In this document: piece by piece, positions 7,940 to 25,926 of the stretch | How positions within the stretch are numbered: the first letter of the stretch is position 1 | How the letters are laid out: every line of letters starts with the position of its first letter | Source of the DNA: Desulfurispirillum indicum S5 | GTDB taxonomy: Bacteria; Chrysiogenota; Chrysiogenetes; Chrysiogenales; Chrysiogenaceae | Assembly: GCF_000177635.2 (NCBI RefSeq) | Contig: NC_014836.1 | Coordinates: forward strand, 477,501-541,500 | Length of the DNA: 64,000 nt | Reading direction: 5' to 3' | The notes under the pieces: generated by a model | What the model saw: only the letters and a program-made list of their open reading frames with translations | What the model was told of the DNA's origin: nothing | The model's database searches: none | Program-made: the position numbers and the translations under genes

Positions 7940-9160
7940 TTACAGTAAGTGTCCCAGCTTGTCTTTCTTGGTGTTGAGGTAGCGGGTATTGTGTTCGCAC
8001 TCTGCTGTATGCAGGGGAACGCGCTCGTCTATCTCAAGCCCGTATCCGGAAAGGCCCACCAGTTTACGGGGGTTGTTGGTCAGCAAGCGGATCTTTTTGA
8101 TGCCGAGGTCGGCGATGATCTGGGCGCCGGTGCCATAGTCGCGCAGGTCAGCGGCAAATCCCAGGGCTTCGTTGGCCTCCACCGTATCCATGCCCTCGTC
8201 CTGCAGATGGTAGGCGCGGATCTTATTGAGAATGCCGATGCCGCGTCCTTCCTGGAAGAGGTAGAGCACAACGCCGGATCCCGCCTCTTCAATGGCCTTC
8301 ATGGCTGTCTGAATCTGGGAACCGCAGTCGCAGCGCAGGGAGCCAAACACATCTCCTGTCAGGCACTGGGAGTGTACCCGCACCAGGGTCGGGGTTTCCG
8401 GAGTGATATCCCCCTTCACCAGGGCGATGTGCTCACTGCCATCCAGTCGGGAGCGGTAGCCGATCAGTTTGAAGTCGCCACCGTAGCGGGTGGGCAGATT
8501 GGCTTCGGCGATGCGCTCTATGGAAAGCTCTTTTCTGACATGAACGCGGTAGGAGATCAGATCTTTGATGGTCACCAGTTTCATATGGTGTTCGTCGGCA
8601 AAGGCGCGCAGTTCGCTGTAACGCGCCATGGTGCCGTCGTCGTTCATGATCTCGCAGATGACCCCGGCAGGCGAGAGGCCGGCCAGGCGGGCCAGATCCA
8701 CGCTGCCCTCGGTCTGGCCGGTGCGCTGCAGGACGCCGCCATCTTTGGCGATCAGGGGGAATACATGGCCGGGGCGCACCAGGTCGTGGGCTTTGCTGTC
8801 GGGGGCCACGGCGGTCAGAATCGTATGGGCCCGGTCCTGGGCGCTGATGCCGGTACTGACGCCGTGACGGGCTTCGATGGAGACGGTGAAGGCCGTCTCG
8901 AAGGCGCAGGTGTTGTCGCGCACCATGGGCCCGAGATCCAGGGTCTCCGCCTTTTCGCGACTCAGGGAGAGGCAGATCAGGCCGCGGCCGAATTTCGCCA
9001 TGAAGTTGATGATTTCCGGCGTGACCTTCTCGGCCGCACAGACCAGGTCACCCTCGTTTTCGCGATCTTCGTCATCCACCAGGATGACCATCTTGCCATT
9101 GCGGATATCCTCAATGGCCTCTTCTATGGAATCAAAGCGTTGTTTTTCGTCACTGCTCAT
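7940..9160 (-). CDS. ribBA: Bifunctional 3,4-dihydroxy-2-butanone-4-phosphate synthase / GTP cyclohydrolase II
   Basis: Catalyses two entry reactions of riboflavin synthesis: ribulose-5-phosphate to DHBP and GTP to the pyrimidine precursor. 406 residues. The N-terminal RibB half has [11 protein letters not shown] and the RHGVSTGIS region. The C-terminal RibA half has the zinc-binding [20 protein letters not shown], the [14 protein letters not shown] loop and LLTNNPRK. Both halves appear intact. Start ATG at 9160 has AGGAG 11 nt upstream; the reading frame stays open further upstream into rpiB, but without homology. It lies 19 nt after rpiB on the same strand. No FMN riboswitch is visible. Confidence 0.96.
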
Positions 9161-9179
9161 GCTGTCGTTGTCTCCTGTG

Positions 9180-9641
9180 TTAGCAGCCCGGCGCAGCTTT
9201 GGAAGCTGTCTCCAGGTCACGGATTTTCTGCAGGCGTCCGCTGTGGCGCCCTCCCTCAAACTCGCTGTCAAGCCATACTTGCACGATATCGGCAGCCAGA
9301 TCCGGGCCGATGATGCGTCCACCCAGGCACAGCACATTGGAGTCGTTGTGCAGGCGGCTGAAGCGGGCGGTGTACAGGTCGTTGCACAGGGTGGCGCGGA
9401 TGCCCGCGAACTTGTTAGCGGCAATGCTCATGCCAATACCAGAGCCGCACACCAGGATGCCCCGCTGGGCCTGCCCGCTTCTGATAGCCTGACAGACCGG
9501 GCTGGCGTAGTCCGGGTAGTCCACCCGCTCAGTATTCATGCAACCAAAATCAAGAATATCCAGTCCATTTTTACGGACCACGGAAAGAATCAGCTCCTTG
9601 AGCATAAAACCGCCGTGATCACATCCGAAAGCTATCTGCAC
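9180..9641 (-). CDS. rpiB: Ribose-5-phosphate isomerase B
   Basis: Interconverts ribose-5-P and ribulose-5-P. The product is the substrate of RibB encoded just downstream, which fits the operon. 153 residues, full family length. Begins [12 protein letters not shown], with the catalytic Cys in [14 protein letters not shown], the substrate-binding [14 protein letters not shown] stretch and the C-terminal [13 protein letters not shown] motif. Confidence 0.96.
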
Positions 9642-9673
9642 ATATCCTCCAGGGAAAATAGGGTATTTTTTGT

Positions 9674-10060
9674 TTATGCCTGTACCAGCAGCATGCGGGT
9701 AAGCATCATGCCTCCCACCACAGCGGCAATGGACAATGTCACGTTCAGCAGAATATTGATCAGTGCCAGCCCCATGGTGCCACTGTCGCTGAGGAGTACC
9801 GAATCCAGGGCGAAGGTGCTGAAGGTGGTGTAGGAGCCCAGAAAGCCGATGGCAAAAAAGAGCCGGAACTCATCGGGCAGCATGCCCTTCTGGGTTGTGA
9901 GTACGTAGACCACGCCCAGCAGAAAGCTTCCCGCGACATTGACCAGCAGGGTGCCGAAGGGAAAGTTTCCGCCCAGGAGCTTCAGGGCCAGGGCGCCACT
10001 GAAAAAACGGGCCAGGGCGCCGAGCGCACCGCCGACGGCGATAAACAGAACCTGTGTCAT
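9674..10060 (-). CDS. crcB: Fluoride efflux channel CrcB/FluC
   Basis: 128 residues with four predicted membrane helices. N-terminal [10 protein letters not shown], the NVAGSFLLG break helix and the signature [12 protein letters not shown] are all present. The family forms an antiparallel dimeric fluoride channel in the inner membrane. I looked for a fluoride riboswitch in the 100 bp upstream and did not see its conserved blocks. Confidence 0.95.
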
Positions 10061-21295: not shown

Positions 21296-21330
21296 ATTCA
21301 CCGCGAATGAACGCAAATGTACGCGAATAG
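21296..21330 (+). repeat. Left arm of inverted repeat flanking the GxxExxY gene
   Basis: Contains ACCGCGAATGAACGCAAATG followed by TACGCGAAT. The reverse complement of 21753-21789 matches over ~29 bp with only transition-type differences. The repeat is itself a run of ACGCRAAT-like units. Confidence 0.65.
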
Positions 21331-21344
21331 AAACAAGGAATAGC

Positions 21345-21719
21345 ATGCATGTCGAAAGCGACCTGGTCTATCGTGTAACTGGCTGTGCCATGGAAGTGCT
21401 GAATACGCTCGGCCATGGCTTGCGTGAAAAAACCTACGAGCGTGCTCTGTGCATGGAACTTCAGCACCAGGGACTTCAGTTCACCCAGCAGAAGACCTAT
21501 CCCGTGCTCTATCGTGGACAGCAGGTCGATGAATATGTTCCCGATCTGGAAGTGGAGCAGCGCCTGATTGTGGAAGTAAAAACGGCAGAGGCCATTTGCG
21601 AGGCGCATGTCGGCCAGGTACTGAATTACCTTCGCATTACGGGCCTGGAAGCTGGGATAATTCTGAATTTCAAGCACCCCCGACTTGAATGGAAAAAAGT
21701 GGTATTGCAGAAGCGCTAG
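21345..21719 (+). CDS. GxxExxY family protein (PD-(D/E)XK nuclease fold)
   Basis: 124 residues. The family motif appears as LGHGLREKTYERAL (G-x-x-E-x-x-Y). The nuclease core shows DEYVPDLEVEQRLIVEVKT, giving the D...E-x-K catalytic set. FKHPRLEWKKVV matches the C-terminal end. Function in vivo is unknown. The gene is enclosed by inverted repeats (21296-21330, 21753-21789), and its neighbours gatB and rarA are housekeeping genes, so this looks like a small cassette inserted between them. Confidence 0.85.
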   Translation: MHVESDLVYRVTGCAMEVLNTLGHGLREKTYERALCMELQHQGLQFTQQKTYPVLYRGQQVDEYVPDLEVEQRLIVEVKTAEAICEAHVGQVLNYLRITGLEAGIILNFKHPRLEWKKVVLQKR

Positions 21720-21752
21720 GTTCGGAGCTCGACCCATTCGATACGCTTTATT

Positions 21753-21789
21753 CTTGAATTTGCGTCCATTCGCGTTTATTTGCGGTTTT
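21753..21789 (-). repeat. Right arm of inverted repeat flanking the GxxExxY gene
   Basis: Reads TTGCGTCCATTCGCGTTTAT then TTGCGGTTTT, the inverse of the left arm with R-type substitutions. It ends 24 bp before rarA. Confidence 0.65.
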
Positions 21790-23571: not shown

Positions 23572-23723
23572 GATGGCTCAGGGGTTATGGAGCAATCGAA
23601 CACAAGAAAGGCCGTTGCCTCCCGCGAAGGCGCTGAGAGCGCAGCGAACGGGCGAGAGATTCTGTCCTTGGCTGTTGCCGCCAACTCTTGCTATTCATGT
23701 ATCCAGACACTATACTTCCAACT

Positions 23724-24755
23724 ATGAGTAACCAGCATGGACACCACAACCAGCACGACAGCGGCTACAAGCTACTCTTCTCCAATCCGCGCCTGGTGCA
23801 GGATCTACTGACCGGATTTGTCAGGCAGGAGTGGGTCGGGCATATGGATTTCGCTACCCTGGAACCCGTCAAGGCATCATTTGTCAGCGACGACATGCGA
23901 CAGCGCCATGACGACTGTATCTGGAGAGTGCGTTTCAAGGGGCAATGGCTGTATCTGTATTTGCTCCTTGAATTCCAGTCCAGCGACGATTACTTTATGG
24001 CTGTGAGGTTCATGACCTACACTGGGCTGCTCTATCAGGACATCATCCGCAGTGAGCAGTTGCGGCGGGGCGATACATTGCCTCCCGTCCTGCCCATCGT
24101 CATTTACAACGGCACCAGCCCCTGGAGCGGCCCCCAGGATATACAGGAGCTCATTAACCCCGTGCATCCGGGCCTTGGACGCTTCACACCGCGCTTGTCA
24201 TACTTCCTGCTGGATGAAGGGCGCGTCAGCGCCGAGGAACTGGCCGGTGAGGACACCAACCTGGTGCGGGAGTTGATTAAACTGGAATTCTGCAGCAACC
24301 CCGCAGAAATCCGCCAGTGCATCGGGCAGCTGCACAGCAGGCTCGATCAGCCGGAGCACCAGCAAATCCGCCGGGTCTTTGCCATCTGGCTGAATCGCTT
24401 TCTCAGGGCACGTTTCAGGAACACCATTATACCGGAATGCAGCGAACTCACGGAGGTCAACGCCATGTTAGCGGAACGACTTGATGCATGGATAGGGGAC
24501 ATAGAAAAGCAAGCCCTGGAAAAAGGCCTGCGCAAAGGCGAACTTAAAGGCGAACTTAAAGGTGAACTCAGAGGTAAACTGGAAGGTGAACTGCATGGTC
24601 GCGCCCAGCTGCTGTATCTGCAGATCGAACTTCGCTTCGGCAGCGTACCCGATGCCGTGCGGGAGCGCATATCCCACGCCACGGCCGAGGAGCTGGATCG
24701 CTTTGCAGTCAATATCTTTGACGCCGAGACAGCTTATAGGGTAGTGGAGCTGTAA
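23724..24755 (+). CDS. Rpn family recombination-promoting nuclease / putative transposase
   Basis: 343 residues. N-terminal DSGYKLLFSNPRLVQDLLTGFV and the PD-(D/E)XK core RHDDCIWRVRF ... YLLLEFQSSDDYFMAVRFMTYT match E. coli RpnA-E (Transposase_31), which cut DNA and raise RecA-independent recombination. Near residues 270-290 the protein has tandem GEL-K/R repeats (KGELKGELKGELRGKLEGEL) encoded by a 12 bp repeat, the usual Rpn hinge. ATG 23724 has no clear Shine-Dalgarno site. It is bracketed by identical hairpins, so it may be an independent mobile or horizontally moved unit. Confidence 0.88.
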   Translation: MSNQHGHHNQHDSGYKLLFSNPRLVQDLLTGFVRQEWVGHMDFATLEPVKASFVSDDMRQRHDDCIWRVRFKGQWLYLYLLLEFQSSDDYFMAVRFMTYTGLLYQDIIRSEQLRRGDTLPPVLPIVIYNGTSPWSGPQDIQELINPVHPGLGRFTPRLSYFLLDEGRVSAEELAGEDTNLVRELIKLEFCSNPAEIRQCIGQLHSRLDQPEHQQIRRVFAIWLNRFLRARFRNTIIPECSELTEVNAMLAERLDAWIGDIEKQALEKGLRKGELKGELKGELRGKLEGELHGRAQLLYLQIELRFGSVPDAVRERISHATAEELDRFAVNIFDAETAYRVVEL

Positions 24756-25062: not shown

Positions 25063-25926
25063 TTATGCGGTTTTTCTCTCTTTGTAATATTTTTGTTCGA
25101 ATGCAGCAGGTGAGAGATACCCAAGTCCCCGCTGCACCCTTTGTCTGTTATAGAACACTTCAATGTACTCGGTTATATTACGTATAGCCTCTTGGCGTGT
25201 CGCATAGCGCTTGTGATAGATCAACTCTGTCTTCAGTATTCCCCAGAAACTCTCAATTGGTGCATTGTCATAGCAATTTCCCCGACGGCTCATGGAAGAT
25301 TGCATGCCATAACGCTCCAATTGTTGCCTGAACTCATTTGAGCAATATTGGCTGCCACGATCGCTGTGGTGAATGAGCCCCTTGCCGGGACGCTCCAGCT
25401 CCACCGCATGCTGCAGTGACTGCATGACAAGGTTCTTGGTCATACGTTCAGACATAGCATACCCCACCAGCTTTTTACTGTAGAGATCCTTGTGACCAGC
25501 AAGGTAGAGCCACCCTTCATCTGTTGGAACATAGGTGATGTCGGTAAGCCACGCCTGGTTAGGGGCACTGGCGGTAAACTCCTGATTCAGTATGTTTGGT
25601 GCCACTGGCAGCTTGTGGTTCGAGTTGGTGGTTGCCTTGAACTTCTGCTTCTGTTTGCACACTATTCCATGCATCTTGCGTACTTTCCTGATCCGGTAGA
25701 GACTGACATGTATTCCATTTGCCATCAGCTCCTGTTGTAGGCGCTCCGGAGAATATGTCTTCCGGGTTTTCTCGTGAGCCGCTTTGATTTCAACCGTGAG
25801 CCGCAGGTTTTCCTTGCGACGCTCTGACACTGGCCGTGTGCGCCATGAATAGTACCCACTGACGGATACATCGAGGACTTCACACAGCAGGCGCAGGTTA
25901 TACTCAGGCTGAAGTGCTTTGATCAT
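25063..25926 (-). CDS. IS3-family transposase OrfB (DDE catalytic subunit)
   Basis: 287 residues. The DDE triad is visible: WLTDITYVPT, GLIHHSDRGSQYCS and NAPIESFWGILKTE, with the HTH_21-type N-terminus YNLRLLCEVLDVSVSGYYSW. It starts in an ATGA overlap with the end of orfA. An A6G slippery stretch (CTAAAAAAGG, about 25965-25974) near the orfA end suggests production of an OrfAB fusion by -1 frameshifting, as in most IS3 elements. Because orfA is interrupted by IS630, normal expression of OrfAB is probably lost. Confidence 0.93.
   Translation of the reverse strand: MIKALQPEYNLRLLCEVLDVSVSGYYSWRTRPVSERRKENLRLTVEIKAAHEKTRKTYSPERLQQELMANGIHVSLYRIRKVRKMHGIVCKQKQKFKATTNSNHKLPVAPNILNQEFTASAPNQAWLTDITYVPTDEGWLYLAGHKDLYSKKLVGYAMSERMTKNLVMQSLQHAVELERPGKGLIHHSDRGSQYCSNEFRQQLERYGMQSSMSRRGNCYDNAPIESFWGILKTELIYHKRYATRQEAIRNITEYIEVFYNRQRVQRGLGYLSPAAFEQKYYKERKTA

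Follow-up and report, generated by a model that had tools for sequence, protein, structure and literature searches.

A GxxExxY nuclease gene between inverted arrays of its own word: a probable gene-carrying member of a REPIN/RAYT-like repeat system

We identified, between gatB and rarA, a short cassette in which one gene for a predicted nuclease of the GxxExxY family is enclosed by two inverted arms, each composed of iterations of a single word. We consider it probable (roughly 0.6) that this locus represents the gene-carrying form within a system of dispersed repeats comparable to REPIN/RAYT, in which the PD-(D/E)XK enzyme would be the cognate of the repeats. Across the genomes compared, arms match gene by gene, arm sequence and protein vary together, copies of the repeats are found genome-wide in many genomes bearing the gene, elements are exchanged and lost at shared slots, and repeat types (flavours) are nested within one another. 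The mobility of these elements is what we infer, purely from comparison.

The cassette between gatB and rarA

The window, i.e. the whole stretch of DNA analysed, comprises 64,000 nt, corresponding to positions 477501 to 541500 of a chromosome assembled as one contig (2,928,377 bp). An earlier note on this DNA had placed a GxxExxY gene between gatB and rarA, with inverted ACGCRAAT-rich flanks at both sides. Both statements are borne out: only this gene is present between the end of gatB (21289) and the start of rarA (21813), and it is bounded by two real arms. The features of the interval, in window coordinates, are as follows.

21300 to 21328, forward strand: left arm, ACCGCGAATGAACGCAAATGTACGCGAAT, pointing into the gene
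21300 to 21328, forward strand: words of the left arm, ACCGCGAAT..ACGCAAAT..ACGCGAAT, at 10-bp spacing
21335 to 21339, forward strand: AAGGA, candidate site resembling a ribosome-binding site, 5 bases 5' of the start codon
21345 to 21719, forward strand: GxxExxY protein gene, ATG to stop, 124 aa, PD-(D/E)XK (PDDEXK_3)
21758 to 21786, reverse strand: right arm, triad of the same type as the left arm, inverted
21300 to 21786, forward strand: whole cassette, 487 bp, in the gatB/rarA interval

The flanks had been described as inverted repeats of about 30 bp. They are indeed inverted, but instead of a plain 30-bp repeat each arm is a triad of 8-bp ACGCRAAT-like words placed 10 bp apart, the outermost of which begins ACC. 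The left and right arms are identical at 23 of 28 core positions, and the differences comprise four A/G transitions, the only kind of change that the note had allowed, and one T/G transversion. On inspection, each arm consists of one word repeated in direct orientation, and is neither palindromic nor GTAG-bearing. The four exact matches to CGCRAATNNACGCRAAT in the window all fall within the two arms; with up to two mismatches there are five matches against 0.46 expected, and five or more were obtained in none of 100 shuffles. A generic repeat finder, run on the window with 9-base seeds, did not report the arm pair.

The same note had proposed a search for empty gatB-rarA sites and target duplications. 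An empty site was identified in G001, a relative from the same family as the host, in which gatB and rarA are adjacent, separated by a 73-bp gap without any triad word. We found a rarA match near gatB in this genome only, and the other 28 of the 29 relatives searched, having no such match in the stretch around gatB, are therefore uninformative on the site. Inspection by eye of the surroundings of the window cassette revealed no target duplication.

The encoded protein is a plain member of its family by both models that describe it, matching TIGR04256 with 136.8 bits (cut-off 35; E=4.1e-40; model positions 2-116 of 116) and PF13366 (PDDEXK_3) with E=1.5e-37. These are its sole NCBIfam (GxxExxY) and Pfam matches, respectively, and neither an HUH-type transposase nor any other known transposase family was matched in either collection. 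The G-x-x-E-x-x-Y motif reads GLREKTY, its E being present in all 70 aligned proteins and its Y in 68. The conserved residues of the window protein are E28, D67, E77, K79, Q91 and Y95, including the PD-(D/E)XK catalytic residues D67 and E77-x-K79; across the alignment the first E, the D and the K each occur in 70/70 proteins, the second acidic residue and the Q in 68/70, and the last Y in 69/70. These residues fit a PD-(D/E)XK active site followed by a Q-x-x-x-Y element, which is also found in RecB-like nucleases, and the protein is a predicted nuclease.

AlphaFold models built from one and from three sequences reached mean pLDDT values of 35.4 and 49.1, too low for use, and a search of the PDB by sequence returned no relative at E<=1. 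Scanning with the window protein gave no relative among viral contigs and matches in 8 of 72,556 plasmid records, and a profile scan of the viral contigs yielded two GxxExxY relatives, both judged by eye to have such arms. In the passages of open-access literature that we found, neither the function of the family nor its flanking repeats are described, and one passage on GxxExxY concerns reverse transcriptases.

Matched arms and repeat flavour across the family

We investigated the flanks of GxxExxY loci drawn from 50 diverse genomes, the host phylum, Geomonas and plasmids; for gatB loci, the first 50 of 80 were taken. At each locus the 300 bp upstream were aligned with the reverse complement of the 300 bp downstream, and a score of at least 15 was counted as a match. 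At least one GxxExxY fragment above the cut-off was present in 16 of the 50 diverse genomes, and the family was present in all 19 Geomonas genomes. Among the diverse-genome matches 39 loci were scored, leaving aside fragments (including L252-L256), weak matches, and L216, L225 and L234, which lie near contig ends.

Matched inverted arms were identified at 86 of the 94 scored loci: 40/45 in the first locus set, 29/29 in Geomonas, 6/8 on plasmids and 11/12 in a further Geomonas set, although the 29 Geomonas loci occupy nine slots and so are not 29 independent cases. Eight loci fell below the threshold, and some matches above it are without clear triads, such as L258 (a G+C-rich match) and L325. 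The median cassette length is 529 bp, calculated from the 68 of 82 loci that score at least 18, the further 12 Geomonas loci lying outside this set. The flavours vary widely (CACGAAG, CACAGAG, CGCAAAG, CACGGAT, GGGGAT, CTGATT, CAGAATT and others), and the arms belonging to one gene are in most cases alike. The earlier note had suggested a search for other GxxExxY genes with the same flanks. In the host chromosome there are four GxxExxY genes, each between inverted arms of its own flavour.

This window: arms CGCRAAT, arm score 20
722 kb: arms CACRAAT, score 15, gene broken by an in-frame stop
2112 kb: arms CACGGAA, score 22
313 kb: arms GCGCAAAG, score 18

Two other explanations were considered. 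Chance pairing of repeats is rejected on the basis of the window shuffles and of a control set of ordinary ORFs, of which 18 of 582 score at least 15 and one of 582 at least 20. The abundance of repeats in some genomes has a real effect, but one too small to account for the result: upstream and downstream flanks that had been mispaired reached 15 in 14% of cases within the same genome (n=140), 10% between different genomes (n=1840) and 20% within Geomonas (n=812).

Arm flavour also follows protein type between genomes. Protein identity and arm similarity are correlated over 70 loci (Spearman 0.30), a value that none of 1000 permutations reached (maximum 0.16). For this test all Geomonas were counted as one group and 12 of 82 loci were removed for an internal stop, a score below 15 or a length below 95 aa, and hence only arm-matched loci are included. 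The median arm score is 7-8 where protein identity is below 45% and increases to 17 above 60%, and at 62 of the 70 loci the arm sequence is shared better with the nearest protein from another group than with the rest on average.

The distribution of the repeats was compared between bearers and non-bearers of the gene. In the host phylum, GxxExxY is present in two of 50 genomes, which have 84 triads against 1 in the control and 10 against 0, and the highest counts in the other 48 are 5 against 15, 3 against 3, and 2 against 0. Among the 50 diverse genomes, triads are enriched (at least 4 matches and at least three times the control, a rule fixed after the counts were known) in 8 of 16 bearers and in 0 of 34 non-bearers. 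Pooled over 100 genomes, this amounts to 10 of 18 bearers and 0 of 82 non-bearers (Fisher 2.5e-9, with the threshold set post hoc), which contradicts a repeat family general to all bacteria. The eight diverse bearers without enrichment include five with at most two matches, two with three, and G070, which with 13 matches against 5 in the control fails the rule; the search pattern was built from the few flavours of the window, which may or may not be the cause.

Together, these comparisons bear on the possibility that the repeats are moved by another agent, be it an enzyme or recombination slippage, and that GxxExxY is a passenger repeatedly captured between two of them. Many repeats are distant from any GxxExxY gene, some genomes have abundant repeats without the cognate gene, and some triad arrays resemble duplicated larger blocks, all of which such a passenger would explain. 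We nevertheless consider it unlikely, given that the arms match gene by gene, that flavour tracks protein type between genomes, and that triads are enriched in none of the 82 genomes lacking GxxExxY.

We additionally noted two genomes with local or numerous copies. In Desulfosarcina widdelii (G099), most of the 75 triad matches and three GxxExxY genes lie at ~344-447 kb of contig 1, i.e. within about 100 kb of a 7.3-Mb chromosome. In G065, the genome of locus L111, many GxxExxY fragments, some with stops, accompany a small number of intact copies, a pattern suggestive of copies arising and then decaying.

Gene-less units and turnover at shared slots

Repeats of this kind are not confined to the surroundings of GxxExxY genes but form a family spread over the whole genome, which the earlier note, based on the window alone, was not in a position to recognise. 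Searching the host chromosome with a word-pair pattern (at most one mismatch) gave 110 matches against 2 for the reversed control, and most of the matches listed lie at a distance from GxxExxY genes, frequently within mosaic intergenic blocks. Many host triads are single or stand in direct arrays, and paired gene-less units are therefore established for Geomonas and not for the host.

In Geomonas, we identified scattered gene-less units of two inverted triads, of ~75-230 bp. In the three Geomonas genomes with complete match lists, to which the orientation count is restricted, the 143 matches to one flavour (B) include 48 neighbouring pairs 21-300 bp apart that are convergent, and none that are divergent or on the same strand. 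Sixteen of the 48 have a spacing of 48-50 bp, giving units of 75-77 bp, one of which forms a near-perfect hairpin of -40.3 kcal/mol (RNA parameters). At two sites a B unit is nested within an A unit, the outer A arms of which still match (scores 20-25). Around 20 gene-less units inspected by eye there was no consistent target duplication, although short matches occurred in places (CGTTT at L335, for example).

The number of B repeats is higher in genomes judged by eye, on the basis of proteins and arms, to have a B gene (median 60, n=8) than in the others (median 29, n=11; p=0.002, with species not independent and a large overlap). Several Geomonas genomes that lack a B gene still have many B repeats, e.g. 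63 and 51, indicating that repeat number and gene are loosely coupled.

The pairing of the words also bears on a reading of GxxExxY as a defence or DNA-processing nuclease, with the dispersed words as self-marking or uptake signals. A restriction-like family accompanied by short words genome-wide would suit this, as would the few relatives that our searches returned among phages, plasmids and viral contigs, but the words stand in inverted, element-like pairs with preferred spacing and several flavours co-occur in one genome, and we regard it as very improbable.

We identified turnover at two slots shared between Geomonas genomes. The first lies 3' of a polysaccharide-synthesis gene and 5' of a Wzi-type gene, the latter present in 17 of 19 genomes. 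In these 17 the slot holds cassette A (five genomes), cassette B (seven), gene-less units or remnants (four) or no repeats (one). The five genomes without a cassette comprise two with a C-type gene-less unit and a leftover A-type right end, one with B-type gene-less units, one with a B-type right end, and one that is bare. Protein identity between A and B is 35-41%, and the flanks are 91-93% identical in the closest A/B pair (G109 versus G107). On the left side, homology in this pair breaks off outside the outermost left arm, 9 bp from it in G109 and 4 bp in G107, and on the right side it restarts ~60-70 bp beyond the last arm, within the Wzi gene.

All 19 genomes have the second slot (flank identity to the query 85-97%), which contains a B unit in eight (one of them shortened), a C-type unit in seven (that of G070 loosely similar), unrelated repeats in two, and nothing or nearly nothing in two. 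At the L333 slot, G108 and G115 have other, unrelated repeat types, which suggests that this slot accepts several kinds of element. Homologous recombination through the outer flanks, and not transposition, could have produced the A/B exchange at the first slot; such recombination accounts less well for the nesting and for the units found genome-wide.

The slots are likewise relevant to the view that the repeats are binding sites of a nucleoid protein or global regulator, with GxxExxY either unrelated or autoregulated with the repeats as its operators. Passages of Aklujkar et al. 2009 (PMC2700814) describe, in Geobacter metallireducens, opposite-strand pairs of sites with 3-5 tandem repeats of 7-9 bases, proposed as putative IHF/HU-type sites, and a related Geobacter genome paper reports, in the part cited here, many multicopy sequences (PMC2996986). 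By these partial descriptions, the Geobacter sites resemble ours in their iterated short repeats, opposite-strand pairs, variable distance and many copies, but in those passages they are interpreted as regulatory and no nuclease gene is tied to them (PMC2700814). Slot replacement, nesting and two-armed gene-less units resemble elements, not conserved regulatory sites, and sister species hold different flavours in one slot; we therefore find a regulatory origin quite improbable.

The mosaic intergenic blocks of the host, in which several flavours follow in succession, are exemplified by L073 at 8780-9880 (709.3-710.4 kb of the host chromosome). Similar triads occur at 1058, 2318 and 2853 kb, and host triads that are nearly identical, also in the 12 bases around them, are found at places far apart. 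A 28-base sequence, CTCACGCCCGTTCGCTGCGCTCACTCAA, is found beside CGCAAAG-like words in both the host and Geomonas, which we take to belong to different phyla, with at most one change (L073 around 9091, the left flank of L095 and the upstream flank of L274). A CACRAAT cassette also occurs in two genera (L093, 2052-2452, and L250 on contig 10 of G002), with 88.8% identity over 401 bp. Both copies are broken; they flank a conserved gene on different sides in the two genera, and a 3' remnant occupies the alternative position.

Proposed working and relation to known systems

We propose that the small PD-(D/E)XK nuclease would recognise arrays of three to four iterations of a short word, two of which, in inverted orientation, bound its own gene (~0.5 kb) and also gene-less units. 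The nuclease might cut or nick its cognate arms, either as duplex or as a hairpin that the inverted arms could form, and host replication or recombination may then copy, swap or delete the unit. The earlier note had proposed a minimal mobile or self-mobilising cassette using its own nuclease or a host enzyme; a mobile cassette with its own nuclease is the best-supported reading of the locus, and it is partly supported, mostly through arms, slot turnover and gene-less units elsewhere. A broader generalisation, which we put forward tentatively and with some doubt, is that nucleases of the GxxExxY family drive the movement of a widespread form of transposase-free mobile DNA, with a private word, a self-copied 0.5-kb cassette, swarms of 75-230 bp units spread via host repair, and flavours competing for slots.

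REPIN/RAYT systems, as excerpts of the literature describe them, consist of dispersed extragenic repeats in inverted doublets, with an enzyme gene near its own repeat type and co-evolution of enzyme and repeat (PMC3116915, PMC8266576), the REP sequences having a tag such as GTAG (PMC8266576, PMC3733652). Similarly, the repeats here are short, dispersed and extragenic, the cognate gene stands beside its own repeat type, inverted doublets are in excess (as in the B flavour of Geomonas), and repeat type co-varies with the cognate enzyme. In contrast, the enzyme is of the PD-(D/E)XK type and not an HUH transposase as in RAYT, and the arms iterate one word, unlike the palindrome and tag of REP. Thus, the system would be REPIN/RAYT-like in its working, but with no HUH enzyme and no palindromic REP it is not a member.

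The terminal inverted repeats recall insertion sequences, from which the cassette differs in having no known transposase family. MITEs are gene-less elements that share terminal inverted repeats with a gene-bearing parent insertion sequence, and the gene-less units share theirs with the cassette in the same manner, although without a classical transposase or a consistent target duplication seen by eye.

Among the matches listed in the open-access literature, supplements aside, we found no report tying such repeats to GxxExxY genes. Should genes and repeats prove to be linked, the GxxExxY family, for which we found no described function, gains a testable role and a class of intergenic repeats gains an owner, and there would be a second independent route, besides RAYT, to populations of miniature repeats in bacteria. 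Most genes have their own word, and recognition is therefore directly testable with matched versus swapped pairs.

Finally, a gene for a Transposase_31 (YhgA-like) protein is located ~2 kb downstream of the cassette (window 23688-24755). Transposase_31/YhgA-like proteins are PD-(D/E)XK nucleases tied to recombination. GxxExxY resembles Transposase_31 and the Rpn recombination-promoting nucleases in being of the PD-(D/E)XK type, but belongs to a different Pfam family, and such triads are absent around the window's Transposase_31 gene. An integrase-core (rve) transposase gene with an HTH_21 domain, presumably IS3-like, is located at window 25063-25926.
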